From positions 1 through 36,179 of the forward strand of contig CACZFH010000027.1 in the NCBI GenBank assembly GCA_902780395.1: a DNA stretch of 36,179 bases, written 5' to 3'. The first letter of the stretch is position 1, and the number at the start of each line of letters is the position of its first letter. Source of the stretch: an uncultured Erysipelotrichaceae bacterium (lineage in GTDB: Bacteria; Bacillota_I; Bacilli_A; RF39; UBA660). Shown piece by piece: positions 5,431 to 33,895 of this stretch. Made by a program: the position numbers and the translations under genes. The notes below the pieces were generated by a model. It saw only the letters and a program-made list of their open reading frames with translations. It did no database searches and had not been told where the DNA came from.

Positions 5431-5439
5431 ATTATACCA
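5431..5439 (-). promoter_or_regulatory. Extended -10 promoter of priA
   Basis: Minus strand reads TGGTATAAT, a TGn-extended -10. No good -35 is present; the T-run of the upstream terminator occupies the spacer. Confidence 0.6.
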
Positions 5440-5464
5440 AAAAAAGAAGTCATTGAACTTCTTT
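5439..5464 (-). terminator. Intrinsic terminator after the 16-residue-repeat protein gene
   Basis: Minus strand AAGAAGT-TCAATG-ACTTCTT followed by a T-run. It ends right before the priA promoter, and one base past the repeat gene's stop. Confidence 0.8.
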
Positions 5465-6448: not shown

Positions 6449-6477
6449 ATTATATCGAACAACAAAAAAAAGAACAA
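6449..6477 (-). promoter_or_regulatory. Promoter of the 49-aa peptide / repeat-protein operon
   Basis: Minus strand TTGTTC (6472-6477), 17-bp spacer, TATAAT (6449-6454). The -35 lies in the 3' arm of the rseP... upstream hairpin at 6463-6493, and its T-run is the spacer. Confidence 0.6.
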
Positions 6478-13559: not shown

Positions 13560-13588
13560 ATTATACAAAAAAAAGACAAACAATGCAA
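13560..13588 (-). promoter_or_regulatory. Promoter of the 245-aa gene and miaB
   Basis: Minus strand TTGCAT (13583-13588), 17-bp spacer made of the terminator's T-run, TATAAT (13560-13565). The -35 lies in the loop of the ankyrin-gene terminator. Confidence 0.55.
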
Positions 13589-25813: not shown

Positions 25814-25830
25814 AGAATTAGGTGAATAAA

Positions 25831-26748
25831 ATGAACCGAAAAAGAAAAAAGAAATTAAAAATTAAAAAGAAGAATTTTACAATTTTTCTAATCATAATTA
25901 TAGTAATTACTTTTCTTATTACCGAATTTAGTATCATGGTAGTAAATAAACTAAGCACTCCTGAAACAGTAGAAAAAACAACCAAGAAAAAAAAGAAAAA
26001 GGAAAAATCATCAGAACTAGATCAATTAGATAATATAAATGAAACAATAAATTACTTTAACAACGATTATATAAAGCGATATATATCATATAAGAATAGT
26101 AATCCTTCTTTAGAAACAATACAAATAATCAAGAATGTAAATATGCAACTAGACAAAATACAATATGAAGATATAATTCCTGCTAGAAACTTAAATACAC
26201 CAAAAGTACTAGTAAACAAATATTATTATTTAGAAGAAGATTATATACCAAAAGATCTAGAAACGATTAGTTCAATGTATGCATTAAGTGGTATGCGTTT
26301 AGTAAAAGAAGCTAAAATAGCTTTTGAATCTCTTTCAAAAGCTGCTTCTAAAGAAGATTTAAAAATAATTGCTATGTCTAGTTACCGTAGTTATGAATAC
26401 CAAGTAGATTTATATAATCGTTATGCTAAACAAGATGGCAAAGAAAAGGCAGATACATATTCAGGAAGACCTGGTCATTCAGAACATCAAACAGGTTTAG
26501 CCGTCGATGTCTACAATGGAAAAACAGATTACACTAATTTTGAAAAAACCAAAGAATTCAAATGGATGAATTCTCATGCTCACGAATATGGTTTTATTTT
26601 AAGATTCCCTAAAGAAAAAGAAAATGAAACTGGCTATGAATATGAATCATGGCATTATCGTTATGTAGGAGAAGAAATTGCAACTTATATAAAAGAAAAT
26701 AATATTTCATTTGAAGAATATTATGCAACAATCATAAAAGATTGGTAA
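25831..26748 (+). CDS. VanY/LdcB family D,D- or L,D-carboxypeptidase (M15B)
   Basis: 305 aa from the ATG with an AGGTG site; a GTG three codons earlier lies in that site. A very basic N-terminus (RKRKKKLKIKKK) precedes one helix (about 17-39) and a Lys-rich linker. The catalytic domain has SSYRSYEYQVDLYNRYAK, the zinc motif GHSEHQTGLAVDV (His219, Asp226), YGFILRFP, and ESWHYRYVG (Glu272, His275). It trims peptide stems of peptidoglycan outside the membrane; whether it is D,D or L,D cannot be told from sequence. Plus strand, divergent from the S11 carboxypeptidase and convergent with the macroglobulin gene. Confidence 0.93.
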   Translation: MNRKRKKKLKIKKKNFTIFLIIIIVITFLITEFSIMVVNKLSTPETVEKTTKKKKKKEKSSELDQLDNINETINYFNNDYIKRYISYKNSNPSLETIQIIKNVNMQLDKIQYEDIIPARNLNTPKVLVNKYYYLEEDYIPKDLETISSMYALSGMRLVKEAKIAFESLSKAASKEDLKIIAMSSYRSYEYQVDLYNRYAKQDGKEKADTYSGRPGHSEHQTGLAVDVYNGKTDYTNFEKTKEFKWMNSHAHEYGFILRFPKEKENETGYEYESWHYRYVGEEIATYIKENNISFEEYYATIIKDW

Positions 26749-26780: not shown

Positions 26781-29700
26781 TTATTCAGTAACTGTTATAG
26801 ATAATGAATTAGACATTAAATAATGATCATTTTCTAAAGCAACAATCGGTTCTATTACATAATGTCCAGGAGAAGAAGCATATAAAGGTATCTGAACTTC
26901 ATCTTTATTATATGGTTTTGAAACCTTTACATGATCAATACGATTCAATATGACAGGAACTCCAGTCTTATCATTAGATAAACGCAAACCATTAGGTAAA
27001 TATAACCAAAAAGGTTTATCATGATTATGGAATTGAACTGTTAAAATAACAGTATCTCCCAATGAAACAGAATCTGAACTTAAAGAAAGAGTAAGATCTT
27101 CTACTTTTTTATTCTTATCAATTTCATCAATAGATCCTTCATAGAAATAATCAACATAAATATCATCTGCCGTAGATTTAAATTTCAAAGTACCCAAGTC
27201 ATCTTGATAAATCTTTAATTTTTTCTTTCCTAGAGATGATATATCCAAAGTCTCTTTTTTCTTACCATAAGAAACCGTAACTTTTGATACACTATCTAAA
27301 TCAACTTTATTATTTTTAAAATAAGATATGATAGAAAAATATAAATAACGATTAGAAATATCATTTTCTGATAAAAATTTAATTTCTTCTGCAGCCTCTT
27401 TCTTATTAAAGAAAGTTGCAGCATAAGTACTAAGTCCTTCATTAACAAAATGATATTTTTTAACCTTTTGATAATCACCCAAGAATAAGTAAGCTAAAGC
27501 AGTCTTTTCACTCATTCCATCTTTAGAAACAATATAATCTAAATCATCTAAAACAGGTTCCTTCATAGCAGCCAAAACTAAGTAAGCATCTAACTGTTCT
27601 TCTTTACTCTTATTAGAATCTTGAACAATATTATAATAAATTGTTTTATCAAATTGATAAGAATCATCATAATAAGCTAAAAATGCTGTTAAAGGATAAG
27701 AAACATTTTCTGCTGCTAAATACTTCCAACCAGTTTCTCCCCTAAAAGCCGAAACATCTCCAATATCAACACTATTTTCACCTTCTGCATATTCATTTTC
27801 AAATTCCATAGCTTTTTGATAAGCAAACAAGGTATCCATTCTTTCTTCATTATGATCTTTAATGATATCTAAAAAATTAGCATAATCTTTAAAACTAGTC
27901 CGATAGAACTCCAATTGAATTGGATTTTTTGTTGGTTTAATACTTTTTACTTTTGAAATAGAACCTGTATTCTTTACAAATATTTCTGTTTGAGAGTTTT
28001 GCACAGAAAAAGTAAATTCCATCGCATCAGTATCTTTTCCAGCTTTTGCTCGAATAATTGCTTTATACTCTCCAGGAGCTAATTTTCCAAAGTTTACATA
28101 AACCGGTCTACCTATTACTCCTGTTTTACTGATTTTTTTATCAACACCTTCAATAGAAAAGTCATAAGATATATTTTCCTTAGTTCCTCCTATTCCTGTA
28201 GCATTTAACACAACATCATCATCTTTCTTTAACCCTCTAGGTACAACAGTAGAAACAGAAATAGGTAAAGAAGAATTAATATTAATATGTTCAGCACCAA
28301 CATCAGTATTTTCATTTGCAGCATGAACAGTAATTCTAAAAGAAGTAATAGAATCATTTAAAGTAAACGTAACTTTAGCATTACCATTTTTATCAGTCTC
28401 AATAGTATCAAAATAAATTGTATCTCCAAAATTAGCTCTATTAGCCCCAGAAGTAGAACCAGCTCCACCACCTAAATCATAGAATGAATAATCCCTATAA
28501 GTAGAATAAGTATATTCATAATAAAATTTATTAAGATAGATCTTATCCAAAATATTAGTCATATCTTCTGCTACTTTAAATACTCCTTCATCAACCACAC
28601 TAATATTTAATTTAGAAGCAATTCCTTTACCACCTTTACTAACATTTATTTCACAAGTAACTTTTTCTCCAGGAGTGTACTTCTTTTTATTTGGAGTTAT
28701 TTTTATATCCAACTTAGAATCATTTTCTTGATAATCTTGATAACTAGATGGCATACGATAGAATACTCCATCTTTAAAATAAGCAGAAGTAAAATCATAT
28801 CCAGGAACATCATCTTCATTAAATGATATAGCTAAGTTTTGTTTATTTTGATAAATCTTTTGATTATATATTTGATTCTTATATTTTACAATCAACAATG
28901 GATTATCATTAATTTCAGCAACACCAGTATAATGAAATAAATTCAAATATGTTTTATCAGAAACAGATTTTTTCTTACGTTCATAATCAAAATAATATGA
29001 AAAATAATTATAATTTGAAGAAACAGGATAACTTTCATATGAATAATAACCATTATTAGAAACATTTTCACTATTACGATATATATACCCTGTATATTGA
29101 TAAGTCACATCATTTAAATCTTTCATAGTAATAAGCAAAGTATAACTATAAGCCAAATCAGCAGTTGATTTCTTTAATTCATAAGGAATATTCATTTGAA
29201 ATTGACCATTTTTAACTTCAACAGAGGTATCATAAACATTAGTTTTTTCATTAGTCCAATTATAATAAGGTTCATTTTGCTTCGTAAAAGCATTATATCT
29301 TTGTCCAGCTAAATGTCTAGTAGAAACATTCTCTTCAAGCGTTACCGAAACAGTACCTTGATACATTTTATCCTTTAAATCAGTGTTAATATACTTAATA
29401 TTGCCTTTATCAGTTTGATTAGATAAATAATATATTTCTCCAGAAACAGACTGTTTTTTTGCTTGATAAGTATAATTATCCAAAGTAATATATCTATCAA
29501 TTACATAGAAATAAAAACCAATACCCTTAGCACCATATTCTGATAAAGAGCTAGTCACTCTAACATACTCAGAATGATAATTAGTAGAAAGACTATTATT
29601 AAATTCAGTATCAATATCAAAAGAAGCAACACCATTTTCATCTGTAATAGCAGTATATACTTTCTTTCCTACTGTTGCTGTTATTTCTTTATTAGGAACT

Positions 29701-31412
29701 TTAACTCCACTAATATGATCAACCCGAACTGTAAAATGAAATTTATCATTTGCTTTTACATAATTATTATCCATATCAATAATAAAGTCATACATTTCTT
29801 TTTCATAGTGATAAACTTCTACACTACGATTACCAATATTAGCATTTTGATAATGAAGAGTAATATTTAAATAACCATCCTTATAGTTTTTTAAAGAATA
29901 CTTTGTCATAAAAGTACCATCTTTTTTTATTTCCACAGGAACAGTTTCATCTCCTACAGATAAATAGAAATCCTTTGGAGTAACACTAAACTCTTTAAAA
30001 TGAGCCATAGGAATATAACCCCATATTTGAATTTCATCCGTATTTTTATACAAAGGACGATCAGTATATATATACGCATTTGGATATTGAGTATTATTAT
30101 TGGTATTAACACCTACAAAAATAGGTTGATCCTCACCAATCTTTACAATTTGCATTTTCTCTTCTTTAGTGTTATAGTTAGCTATTTTAGCTAATCCATC
30201 TTTATCAGTCTTAACATTTTTATCTAAATATTGAACAGGAATTCCCTCTAACAAAGAATCTCCTTTTCCAACCCATACCAAAATATCAGATTGACTTGCT
30301 ACTAAATAAGCTGATAACTCATTAACTTGAATAGGAAAACTAAATAAAATATCTCCATTTTCTTCATAAACATTTCCTAAATAATAACCAACTGGTAAAG
30401 AATCATTTAATATATAAAGATCTTTTGATACTTCTTGGAAAGAATAGTTTCCTAAAGAAGTGGTTTGTACATCAGTCTTTTTCTCTAATAATTTTTGAAA
30501 ATCATTAGCACTTTGTACTTTTAATATTTCAACTCTAGCAACCTTTTTATTAACCTGTGAATTATTATTAACACGAATAGCAATAGGGTCTGATGGCCTA
30601 AAAGTAGAAATATCATCTATGGTAATACTACTATAATAATTTGTCCCAGTAGTTTTAGTTGAATTCTCAAAAGTTGAAAAAGATGATTGAAAAGGTTCTT
30701 TTAAAGACTCTTCTCCTCTTTTTAAACTATCTTTAACTGTAACTGTATAAACAGTATTAGTTTGAAGAGGAACAGATGGTTTAAAAATCCATAATCTACC
30801 ATTAGAAACAAACTCTCCTTCTACAGCAGGTGAAATCTCTACATAATCTTTTATATCAGTTAAATCTGGATAAGAGAATAATATCTCAATTGTAGTATTT
30901 GGACTAACTCCTTTAGAACCATCAACTGGATAAATAGAATTAACAACAAAATTTTTGGTAGACTGAAATGCCCACTGATCATCAATAACATTTTGATCAA
31001 CAAATTTTGCATTAATAATTTTATCACTAGGAACATCCTGTATTTTTACCTCATATTCATCTCTTTTCTTTTCTTTTATTTCATAACGAACAGCAGGTTC
31101 AAAATACAAATGTTTTTTTACGTCTTCCAATGAACCATTTTTAGTTTTAACAACTAAGACATCTTCTAATTGAAGATATTTACCAGAAGACTTCTTATCT
31201 ACATTAACAATAGAAAAGTAATTCTCTCCCTTACGCTTATCTTGAAAAAAGAATTTTTTTATACCCAGTAATAATAAACACAATAAAAGTACAATTACTA
31301 CTAGTAAGATATATCTAAGTTTCTTATGATTAATAAAAAAAATCTTTATTTTTTGAAAAATACTTTCTTTAACCAAACCATCTACACCATCATTATTTAC
31401 TTCTTCACTCAT
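26781..31412 (-). CDS. Alpha-2-macroglobulin-family membrane-anchored surface protein (no thioester)
   Basis: 1543 aa from ATG 31412 (MSEEVNN, GGGAG site 7 bases upstream); 17 extra codons further up have no site. A cytoplasmic segment and one helix (about 33-50) anchor it. Then come a Big_5-like domain (GVSPNTTIEILFSYP), several macroglobulin domains with the hallmark YIYTDRPLYKNTDEIQIWG, a Gly-rich bait-like loop (DLGGGAGSTSGANRANFG), the ANA strand (TLNDSITSFRITVHAAN) and a C-terminal receptor-like domain (KPFWLYLPNGLRLS). Only one outside Cys (KVTCEINV) is present and no CGEQ, so the thioester trap is missing. Members of this family are thought to act as protease traps; that function here is inference. 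Its own promoter has a 13-T spacer. Confidence 0.9.
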   Translation of the reverse strand: MSEEVNNDGVDGLVKESIFQKIKIFFINHKKLRYILLVVIVLLLCLLLLGIKKFFFQDKRKGENYFSIVNVDKKSSGKYLQLEDVLVVKTKNGSLEDVKKHLYFEPAVRYEIKEKKRDEYEVKIQDVPSDKIINAKFVDQNVIDDQWAFQSTKNFVVNSIYPVDGSKGVSPNTTIEILFSYPDLTDIKDYVEISPAVEGEFVSNGRLWIFKPSVPLQTNTVYTVTVKDSLKRGEESLKEPFQSSFSTFENSTKTTGTNYYSSITIDDISTFRPSDPIAIRVNNNSQVNKKVARVEILKVQSANDFQKLLEKKTDVQTTSLGNYSFQEVSKDLYILNDSLPVGYYLGNVYEENGDILFSFPIQVNELSAYLVASQSDILVWVGKGDSLLEGIPVQYLDKNVKTDKDGLAKIANYNTKEEKMQIVKIGEDQPIFVGVNTNNNTQYPNAYIYTDRPLYKNTDEIQIWGYIPMAHFKEFSVTPKDFYLSVGDETVPVEIKKDGTFMTKYSLKNYKDGYLNITLHYQNANIGNRSVEVYHYEKEMYDFIIDMDNNYVKANDKFHFTVRVDHISGVKVPNKEITATVGKKVYTAITDENGVASFDIDTEFNNSLSTNYHSEYVRVTSSLSEYGAKGIGFYFYVIDRYITLDNYTYQAKKQSVSGEIYYLSNQTDKGNIKYINTDLKDKMYQGTVSVTLEENVSTRHLAGQRYNAFTKQNEPYYNWTNEKTNVYDTSVEVKNGQFQMNIPYELKKSTADLAYSYTLLITMKDLNDVTYQYTGYIYRNSENVSNNGYYSYESYPVSSNYNYFSYYFDYERKKKSVSDKTYLNLFHYTGVAEINDNPLLIVKYKNQIYNQKIYQNKQNLAISFNEDDVPGYDFTSAYFKDGVFYRMPSSYQDYQENDSKLDIKITPNKKKYTPGEKVTCEINVSKGGKGIASKLNISVVDEGVFKVAEDMTNILDKIYLNKFYYEYTYSTYRDYSFYDLGGGAGSTSGANRANFGDTIYFDTIETDKNGNAKVTFTLNDSITSFRITVHAANENTDVGAEHININSSLPISVSTVVPRGLKKDDDVVLNATGIGGTKENISYDFSIEGVDKKISKTGVIGRPVYVNFGKLAPGEYKAIIRAKAGKDTDAMEFTFSVQNSQTEIFVKNTGSISKVKSIKPTKNPIQLEFYRTSFKDYANFLDIIKDHNEERMDTLFAYQKAMEFENEYAEGENSVDIGDVSAFRGETGWKYLAAENVSYPLTAFLAYYDDSYQFDKTIYYNIVQDSNKSKEEQLDAYLVLAAMKEPVLDDLDYIVSKDGMSEKTALAYLFLGDYQKVKKYHFVNEGLSTYAATFFNKKEAAEEIKFLSENDISNRYLYFSIISYFKNNKVDLDSVSKVTVSYGKKKETLDISSLGKKKLKIYQDDLGTLKFKSTADDIYVDYFYEGSIDEIDKNKKVEDLTLSLSSDSVSLGDTVILTVQFHNHDKPFWLYLPNGLRLSNDKTGVPVILNRIDHVKVSKPYNKDEVQIPLYASSPGHYVIEPIVALENDHYLMSNSLSITVTE

Positions 31413-31434
31413 ACACATTCTCCCTATTATCCTC

Positions 31435-31463
31435 ATTATATTAAAAAAAAAAAAATTTGACAA
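31435..31463 (-). promoter_or_regulatory. Macroglobulin-gene promoter with a 13-T spacer
   Basis: Minus strand TTGTCA (31458-31463), a 17-bp spacer AA-T13-AA, and TATAAT (31435-31440). The -35 is the 3' arm of the upstream terminator. A slip of one T would change the spacing to 16 or 18. Confidence 0.75.
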
Positions 31464-31473
31464 TATGCCAAAT
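31443..31473 (-). terminator. Intrinsic terminator after the sortase operon
   Basis: Minus strand ATTTGGCA pairs with TGTCAAAT (8 bp, one G-U, loop TAT), then 13 T. It starts 2 bases after the stop of the 190-aa gene. Confidence 0.85.
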
Positions 31474-31474
31474 C

Positions 31475-32047
31475 TTAATCATACTTTTTTCTATAATACT
31501 GATATAACCAATAAAAACCAGTAAATAAAAACCATATCAATAGAATAAAATTACTAATTTGTACAAAACAAAGAATCGTTTCATTTTGATATAACTTGGT
31601 AATATCAACTAAATCTACTCCATCTGTAGCCGCCAAAGCAATAAATGCCATAAAAAAGAAATATAAAATACTAAAGAAAGAATAATTAACAACTTTCTTA
31701 AAATAAGGAATCTTCTTACTAAACAAAGTCCATAGTATCATAACAGTCACAAAAGCCATTATGAAAAAATAAACAATTGTAGAAGGAAAATAAATATAAT
31801 TTAATATTTCTTTCATAAATGAATCTACACAAGTACTTACATAAGTAGTATAACTAATAAGAATACCAATAATAAAGCCTATATATATACCAATAGCTAT
31901 CATTTGAATTAATAAGTTATTTCTTTTTAAATTAGCAATTAAAATCAAAAATAAAAGAAGGCTTAATATGAACATCTCAATCGATAGAAAAGAGGAAAAG
32001 ATATATCGAAATATCGTTCCAAATTTCTCAACAACAGATAAATTCAT
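31475..32047 (-). CDS. Multi-pass membrane protein in the sortase operon
   Basis: 190 aa from ATG 32047 (MNLSVVEKFG), with AGAAGGTGAT just upstream; the frame 7 codons longer is not supported. About five hydrophobic helices: FLSIEMFILSLLLFLILIA, IGIYIGFIIGILISYTTY, IVYFFIMAFVTVMILWTLF, FSILYFFFMAFIALAA and FILLIWFLFTGFYWLYQYY. It ends in a basic tail (YYRKKYD). I do not recognise the family. It is 13 bases after the sortase gene, so it is co-transcribed with the adhesin and sortase and may assist surface display. No enzymatic motif is visible. Confidence 0.75.
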   Translation of the reverse strand: MNLSVVEKFGTIFRYIFSSFLSIEMFILSLLLFLILIANLKRNNLLIQMIAIGIYIGFIIGILISYTTYVSTCVDSFMKEILNYIYFPSTIVYFFIMAFVTVMILWTLFSKKIPYFKKVVNYSFFSILYFFFMAFIALAATDGVDLVDITKLYQNETILCFVQISNFILLIWFLFTGFYWLYQYYRKKYD

Positions 32048-32060
32048 ATTATCACCTTCT

Positions 32061-32735
32061 CTAGCCAACTAACTCTGAAATATAAACAGTTTGAGTCTTA
32101 TCATTATCTTTTGTACAAGTTATCATAGTAAGAGAATTTTTATTATAATTTCTTTTAATTACAACTGCCCCATTTTTTTCTACTTCATAAATATTAACAA
32201 TTTGATATTCATATTTTCTTCCTGCATAGGTAACATAAGCCATATCTCCAACTTCTAATTTATAAAGATAAGCAAAATATGAAATATAGGCATCTCCTGA
32301 ATGAGCCATTAAAATCAAATTTCCAAACTCAACATCAGGCAAAGTAGAACCCTCTACCATAGTAACATTATACTTTATATTATTATATTTAGAATCAATA
32401 TTATAAAAGCCCCTCTTTAAACGAATCTTAGGTATTTCTAAAACCCCTAAATATTTACTGTAATCAACAACATACTCTTTATTCTCACTACTATTTGAAT
32501 TAACTTCAACATTTTCTACTACAGGAACATCTTCAATCTCATCCTCTTCATGATTTTCTACAAACACGTCATCCATCATAGCAATACGCATATCAGAAAA
32601 TACTTCATCACGCATCTTCAAAATATAATTCCAAGAAAGAGAAATTATTCCTATAAATACAAGGAAAGAGCCAATAACTAATACATGGCTCTTTTTTATT
32701 TTATTATTTACTTTCAACTGGTTTTGCGTTTGCAT
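32061..32735 (-). CDS. Sortase without the usual catalytic arginine
   Basis: 224 aa. A helix at about 17-37 anchors it. The sortase core has YLGVLEIPKIRLKRGFYNID, the His motif ILMAHSGDAYISYF (His145) and the Cys motif SLTMITCTKDNDKTQTVYIS (Cys207). The catalytic Arg normally found about 8-15 residues after the Cys is absent: no Arg occurs from Cys207 to the end. The ribosome site is weak (GGTGTTGG) and the ATG lies 32 bases inside the upstream adhesin gene, so translation may be coupled or start at a nearby TTG. Its likely substrate is the adjoining adhesin with a PDTG sorting signal. Class cannot be set firmly; it is closest to class D/A in general shape. Confidence 0.9.
   Translation of the reverse strand: MQTQNQLKVNNKIKKSHVLVIGSFLVFIGIISLSWNYILKMRDEVFSDMRIAMMDDVFVENHEEDEIEDVPVVENVEVNSNSSENKEYVVDYSKYLGVLEIPKIRLKRGFYNIDSKYNNIKYNVTMVEGSTLPDVEFGNLILMAHSGDAYISYFAYLYKLEVGDMAYVTYAGRKYEYQIVNIYEVEKNGAVVIKRNYNKNSLTMITCTKDNDKTQTVYISELVG
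32665..32694 (-). other. Hairpin near the sortase 5' coding region
   Basis: AAAGAGCCA (32665-32673) pairs with TGGCTCTTT (32686-32694), 12-base loop, ten bases past the adhesin stop on the minus strand. On that strand only TTTCCTTG follows, so it is a weak terminator at best; on the plus strand it has a strong T-run but no gene to end. Confidence 0.55.
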
Positions 32736-33870
32736 AAACTATACCAACACCACATAACAATACAATTAATCCAATAAAGTAAATTGTTTGAGCAGCATTC
32801 ATACCAGTATCAGGAGCACCAATAAATTCAACTTCAGTTCCAGCATTAACATTAATTACATTACCAGTAACAGAAACAACTTTTTGTAAATCTTCTCCAG
32901 CAGCACTTTTTCTTTCTGTATAATATTCATTTCCAGTTAAAGAAGTGAATTTTCCAGTAACATTAACATTAATAGTTTGTACTTTTTCAGTAACTTTTTC
33001 AGCAGGAACCCTTACGTAGAAATCTGTTCCAGCAGCAACTTCTCCCTCAATATCACGACCATCAGCATCAACTACATATGCTCCATCAATTCCACTAACT
33101 GAAATAGTATAAGAAGTTAAACTTGTAGATGGATTACCAACAACTGATATTTTAGCAGATTGATAATAATTTCCATCAGCTGATTTAGCAATTGAATCAC
33201 TAGCCTTAGTTACAGATAATTTTCTAGAACTAGATACATTTTTAGCTTCATCTACTAATGCTCTAACTTTAGCATAAACGCCATCTGCAGAAACTTGACC
33301 ACCAACATAATAGAAAGTATTAGCATTTTGAATACCTGTCATATCTTCACTACTTATATTATGAATAGCAACGCCAGGATTTTTCTCATATAAATATAGC
33401 CAAATAGCAACTTGAGTAGCCCATGTTTCAACATACTTATTTCCATTAACAATATCTACATCATTAGCATAACTATTATCTAAGATATACAATAAACCAT
33501 AGTCTTCAATAGCATCACCTTTTAAATATTGTGGTGGATCTGACTCATCAGATGAAACTTGAGCTTTATGCTCGATACAAAATACTGGATTTGTAGCACT
33601 ATCATCAGAATAATATAGTGGAACAACAAAACTATTACCTTCTCCATCTGTACCTCGTATAAGTGCAGTTCCCTCATGATAAAAATAAAAACTATCACCT
33701 GTTACAGACGCAGCATAACTAATACTAGTAGCTTGATTACTAGTAATACCAAACATTGCAAGAGAGAAAATTGCAAAGATGGCAACAACAAAAGACATAA
33801 GAACAGAAAAATTAAATACACTCTTACTTTTTTTCTGTCTTTGACTTTCTTCCATATAAATTTTTTCCAT
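32704..33870 (-). CDS. Thioester-domain (TQXA) surface adhesin with PDTG sorting signal
   Basis: 388 aa from ATG 33870 (AAGGTGA site); a GTG three codons earlier lies in that site. A signal peptide (about 17-52, VLMSFVVAIFAIFSLAMFG) is followed by a thioester domain: Cys101 in NPVFCIEHKA and Gln156 in WATQVAIWLYLY (numbered from the GTG), the Cys-Gln pair that forms the covalent bond in TQXA domains. An Ig-like/collagen-binding-type beta domain follows (about 220-345). The C-terminal sorting signal is GAPDTGMN, then a hydrophobic helix and a short charged tail (NAKPVESK). Thioester adhesins bind host surfaces covalently. It is the first gene of the adhesin-sortase-membrane-protein operon. Confidence 0.93.
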   Translation of the reverse strand: MEKIYMEESQRQKKSKSVFNFSVLMSFVVAIFAIFSLAMFGITSNQATSISYAASVTGDSFYFYHEGTALIRGTDGEGNSFVVPLYYSDDSATNPVFCIEHKAQVSSDESDPPQYLKGDAIEDYGLLYILDNSYANDVDIVNGNKYVETWATQVAIWLYLYEKNPGVAIHNISSEDMTGIQNANTFYYVGGQVSADGVYAKVRALVDEAKNVSSSRKLSVTKASDSIAKSADGNYYQSAKISVVGNPSTSLTSYTISVSGIDGAYVVDADGRDIEGEVAAGTDFYVRVPAEKVTEKVQTINVNVTGKFTSLTGNEYYTERKSAAGEDLQKVVSVTGNVINVNAGTEVEFIGAPDTGMNAAQTIYFIGLIVLLCGVGIVYANAKPVESK

Positions 33871-33895
33871 TTCTTTCACCTTACCTTATAAATGT

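Follow-up and report, generated by a model that had tools for sequence, protein, structure and literature searches.

A thirteen-T run probably shared by the terminator of a sortase operon and the promoter of a macroglobulin gene in an uncultured Erysipelotrichaceae bacterium

A run of thirteen Ts (T13; positions 31455-31443, minus strand of the window, by which we mean the whole 36,179-nucleotide stretch analysed here) appears to be both the U-tract of an upstream terminator and the core of a 17-bp promoter spacer, and we consider it quite probable that terminator and promoter share the same bases at this junction. In the arrangement we propose, an operon encoding a thioester-domain (TED) protein, a sortase and a membrane protein would end at an intrinsic terminator whose hairpin begins in the final stop codon, with the T13 as U-tract, and polymerase finishing this operon would stop within the T-run. 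A housekeeping-sigma promoter of the macroglobulin gene would reuse the 3' arm of the hairpin as its -35 element and the U-tract as its spacer, and the same DNA would position a new polymerase for the macroglobulin gene, with TATAAT and a short leader to follow. The long run itself would be an elongated U-tract, tolerated because the total spacing is 17 bp. We infer that the predicted terminator and the predicted promoter are both active; more speculatively, polymerase terminating here may restart at the adjoining promoter.

The upstream operon opens with the TED surface protein (32704..33879, minus strand; Pfam PF08341 TED, E 2.4e-7), the translation of which carries a GAPDTG sorting-like signal at its C-terminus. 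It continues with a sortase (32061..32735, minus strand; Pfam PF04203, E 1.6e-16; NCBIfam sortase_fam TIGR01076 above cut-off), and its last gene before the terminator is an open reading frame for a membrane protein of no named family (31475..32068, minus strand; likely start ATG 32047), for which we found no Pfam match. Across the junction lies the gene for a macroglobulin-like protein of 1543 aa (26781..31412, minus strand), which has an N-terminal membrane anchor and Pfam matches to Big_5, A2M, A2M_BRD and MG4, and which returned no matches against PDB or NCBIfam at the cut-offs used. Its translation has no CxEQ-type thioester motif; a thioester-domain protein is encoded by the operon upstream. 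A VanY gene (25822-26748) lies beyond the macroglobulin gene within the window.

A preliminary description of this DNA had placed TTGTCA and TATAAT around AA-T13-AA, exactly 17 bp apart, and we confirmed this layout and its coordinates on the minus strand. The -35 element TTGTCA (31463-31458) matches the consensus at five of six positions and lies in the loop and 3' arm of the hairpin, the 17-nt spacer AA-T13-AA (31457-31441) holds a homopolymer between -35 and -10 as a phase-variable promoter would, and the -10 element TATAAT (31440-31435) is identical in the ortholog described below. The macroglobulin start with the best-placed Shine-Dalgarno sequence (GGGAG, 31424-31420, 7 nt 5' of the start codon) is ATG 31412; a ATAATAGGGAG motif here is common to both orthologs, and an alternative ATG at 31418 was discarded since its Shine-Dalgarno spacing is too short. 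The promoter scored 11/12 matches in our scan, and promoter-like matches in this AT-rich region occur about as often as chance predicts (64 found vs 59 expected from shuffled sequence), so the TTGTCA/TATAAT match alone is little proof. What makes the promoter credible is its position 22 nt ahead of an ATG preceded by a Shine-Dalgarno sequence. It has the form of a sigma-A/70-type promoter: its two hexamers precede a gene, their 17-bp separation falls in the 16-18 bp range of this class, and the arrangement is conserved in the ortholog. It has no TGn extension and should therefore rely more heavily than many sibling promoters on its -35 element and spacing, which makes an effect on expression plausible if the T13 slips.

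The same description had taken the T-run for the U-tract of the upstream terminator, and this held. The predicted hairpin AAGAUUUGGCA-UAU-UGUCAAAUUUU (31476-31452, minus strand) has a folding energy near -8 kcal/mol (z -3.95), which none of 200 shuffles matched. Its 5' arm starts within the TAA stop codon (31477-31475) of the membrane-protein gene, and its 3' arm takes up most of the -35 element and extends four Ts into the run, leaving the remaining Ts as the U-tract. A stable hairpin just past a stop codon, with a U-tract directly behind, is the form of an intrinsic terminator, here one with few G-C pairs that a simple terminator scan missed.

We found one ortholog of the macroglobulin gene among 39 congeners, in genome G029 (69% identity). 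Its junction runs through a hairpin AAGATTTGAAAACTGTTTTCAAATCTT at the same position (-9.6 kcal/mol, z -3.98), T8, GGGTT, TATAAT, a 22-nt leader and the shared ATAATAGGGAG motif, with TTTTCA as the -35 element at the same 17-bp spacing to TATAAT as in the focal promoter. By sequence comparison, the architecture is conserved between the two genomes and the homopolymer is not, retention of a homopolymer in an orthologous promoter being a supportive, not strictly defining, mark of phase variation. The comparison drew on a single assembly for each species. Of the effect on both transcripts that the preliminary description proposed, the dual role of the run is supported by the recurrence in G029 of terminator and 17-bp promoter together; the phase variation is left unsupported by the interrupted T8-GGGTT.

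The terminator is more widespread than the macroglobulin gene. Close relatives of the membrane protein (190-197 aa, 62-88%) occur in 37 of 39 congeneric genomes, and in most of the 30 junctions we read, a hairpin is present at the stop codon of the membrane-protein gene; outside the window, the T-runs at these junctions are 4-9 long. A convergent VanY carboxypeptidase gene lies directly behind in 18 of these 30. The macroglobulin gene is present in only 2 of 39 species, between the widespread sortase operon and the convergent vanY, and among the 30 junctions TATAAT at +37 to +39 is confined to these two carriers; the remaining junctions have no TATAAT, or have it farther off or within unrelated sequence. 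Since TATAAT stands here only in the two macroglobulin species, the promoter appears to have been grafted onto an older terminator. The macroglobulin gene is likely a recent gain, and its distribution points to gain rather than to loss elsewhere; the simplest history would have it enter between the sortase operon and vanY, placing its -10 directly behind the existing terminator.

Layouts of this kind extend well beyond the focal junction. The pattern T9-N0-6-TATAAT occurs at 15 sites in this assembly vs 2 for reversed-pattern controls, and genus-wide at 253 vs 53 (39 genomes, summed by hand, with overlapping matches in longer runs counted repeatedly). Most of the 15 sites follow closely on a stop codon, have a foldable hairpin that runs up to the T-run, and have a Shine-Dalgarno sequence and ATG 15-36 nt after TATAAT; the exceptions are three without such a downstream start and at least three with a weak hairpin or none. 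By Pfam, the genes behind these sites encode a zinc metallopeptidase, an FtsW/RodA/SpoVE protein, a ferredoxin, phosphofructokinase (PFK), TsaE, an S4-domain protein, an AMP-binding enzyme and a Polysacc_synt flippase-type protein, and ThiI is also among the genes served by terminator-tail spacers. In a sample of 308 kb (14 stretches of the same assembly plus the window), TATAAT stands 0-12 nt past the T-run at 9 of 37 co-directional terminators, and its density behind terminators is 0.015-0.022 per position vs a genome background of 0.0016. T-runs past stop codons with no detected hairpin show a similar TATAAT excess in this sample, so spacers rich in T may be favoured in their own right, independent of any terminator. 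Among 24 gene-proximal sites, 10 have -35 matches of at least 4, compared with 2/24 for a slid control, and a TGn extension is present at 10. A class-wide search of 120 genomes for T8-N0-6-TATAAT gave 35 sites vs 12 controls here and, judged by eye, generally smaller excesses elsewhere.

The terminator tail as promoter spacer is a common layout in the genus, and the host genome is compact and AT-rich. In the literature searched, coverage of which was partial, we found no direct description of such U-tract-as-spacer fusions. The window itself holds three more minus-strand junctions of hairpin, T-run and TATAAT (13567-13574, 6464-6471 and 5439-5445), so the fused layout recurs within 36 kb. At the PFK gene, the -10 ATATATAAT is constant across species, the hairpins or T-rich stretches that precede it differ by species, and G029 has none, a comparison that suggests terminators are gained and lost while the promoter stays in place.

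We next consider the length of the run. A/T runs in the 308-kb sample number 788, 346, 119, 34 and 2 at lengths 6, 7, 8, 9 and 10, and the sole 13-long run is the focal T13; under a first-order Markov model about 24 runs of at least 10 would be expected, far above those observed, and T-runs of 12 or longer number two in the whole 1.8-Mb assembly. This abrupt fall above 9 indicates that the genome avoids long runs and that T13 is an outlier. The other T-run/TATAAT sites of this genome are T9 or T10, and T13 exceeds what the layout needs. Across the genus we counted about 36 T12+ runs, roughly half of them a short way ahead of a -10-like hexamer and a start codon. Such runs are followed by genes for a short-chain dehydrogenase (SDR), a class-V aminotransferase, a histidine kinase, a DUF285 surface-type protein, an amylase, a glycosyltransferase, ThiI and undecaprenyl diphosphate synthase, and the roughly 36 runs show no clear bias towards surface genes. 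Nor do long tracts in this lineage cluster at surface or variable genes, the genes behind promoter-proximal T12+ and T9+ runs being mixed and largely housekeeping. We weighed with caution the many T12+ runs of relatives that come from the ends of contigs or from assemblies of low quality. Runs of T16-T18 were seen in the 58%-complete assembly of congener G025 (contigs C17, C102 and C106 and other contig ends), some of them near contig ends, and may be assembly artefacts or AT-rich elements.

The preliminary description had proposed that the T13 spacer is a phase-variable switch of the macroglobulin surface protein, a reading we consider unlikely. Its strongest point is the outlier length, in a genome where such runs are strongly depleted, and the run sits in the spacer of a surface-protein promoter in which spacing should matter; an unusually long run of this kind could be unstable. 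A single outlier shows neither instability nor selection, however, and the other evidence runs against a switch: the ortholog lacks a pure homopolymer, the origin of the run is explained by a terminator present in most congeners even without the macroglobulin gene, and the genus routinely carries T-runs immediately ahead of TATAAT, mostly at housekeeping genes. MutS and MutL are both present in this genome, which also rules out loss of mismatch repair as a driver. On this evidence the phase-variable promoter is unsupported, and the T13 layout is probably no special on/off switch. Still less probable is the two-way form of the idea, in which slippage of the T-run would tune both termination of the TED-sortase operon and initiation at the macroglobulin gene, coupling expression of the two surface systems, whether in opposite or in linked directions.

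Two further readings were weighed against the shared terminator and promoter. It is very unlikely that a U-tract is followed by TATAAT merely by chance, with no promoter present and the macroglobulin gene expressed by read-through from the operon. Such a reading would fit the parity of promoter-like matches in the region with those in shuffles, but G029 keeps the spacing, the TATAAT and the leader length with the proteins 69% identical, and TATAAT is strongly enriched behind T-runs at gene starts. We give almost no credence to translational slippage, by which the macroglobulin frame, listed as open upstream through the T-run to TTG 31463, would be shifted by changes in run length; it was rejected on the placement of the Shine-Dalgarno sequence, which lies downstream of the T-run and ahead of ATG 31412, and on the closed frame of G029, where a TAG stands 21 nt before the ATG.

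Known systems bear on both halves of the junction. In Neisseria, the porA, fetA and opc promoters are phase-variable, with homopolymer spacers whose varying length alters sigma-factor binding (PMC2791445). They are a precedent for a homopolymer spacer, and as in the focal promoter a single-base run occupies the stretch that separates the -35 from the -10 element ahead of a gene for a surface protein; unlike them, the focal tract is a terminator U-tract, its ortholog lacks a pure run, and no variation is known here. The T-tract of Helicobacter pylori sabA lies beside the -35 element, upstream of the core promoter, and ranges from T5 to T28 among strains (PMC4081817). It reaches the size of T13 and likewise belongs to the promoter region of a surface-protein gene, whereas it falls outside the core promoter, varies among strains and is no terminator tail. 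All vlp genes of Mycoplasma hyorhinis share variable adenine tracts tied to on/off states (reviewed in PMC10502178), again an A/T homopolymer in the promoter region of surface proteins, and in an AT-rich low-GC Gram-positive relative; here, by contrast, there is one gene with no known states. By analogy these systems show that such a tract could work, and all of them rest on observed length variation. For the handover between transcripts, E. coli polymerase can restart in vitro at a nearby promoter after termination (PMC6978380). The focal promoter would similarly lie within reach of a polymerase just released from its RNA, although terminator and promoter are separate on the E. coli templates and share bases at the focal junction.

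Should the T-run vary, an uncultured lineage of gut commensals would have a phase-variable macroglobulin. Under the ordinary reading alone, the junction warns against taking T-runs in AT-rich promoters for contingency loci, because a terminator tail can serve as the spacer. The genus-wide reuse of U-tracts as spacers also raises a question open to experiment, namely whether a polymerase released at the end of an operon starts again at the promoter that follows; more speculatively, fused terminator-promoters across this genus could pass polymerase along between successive operons.
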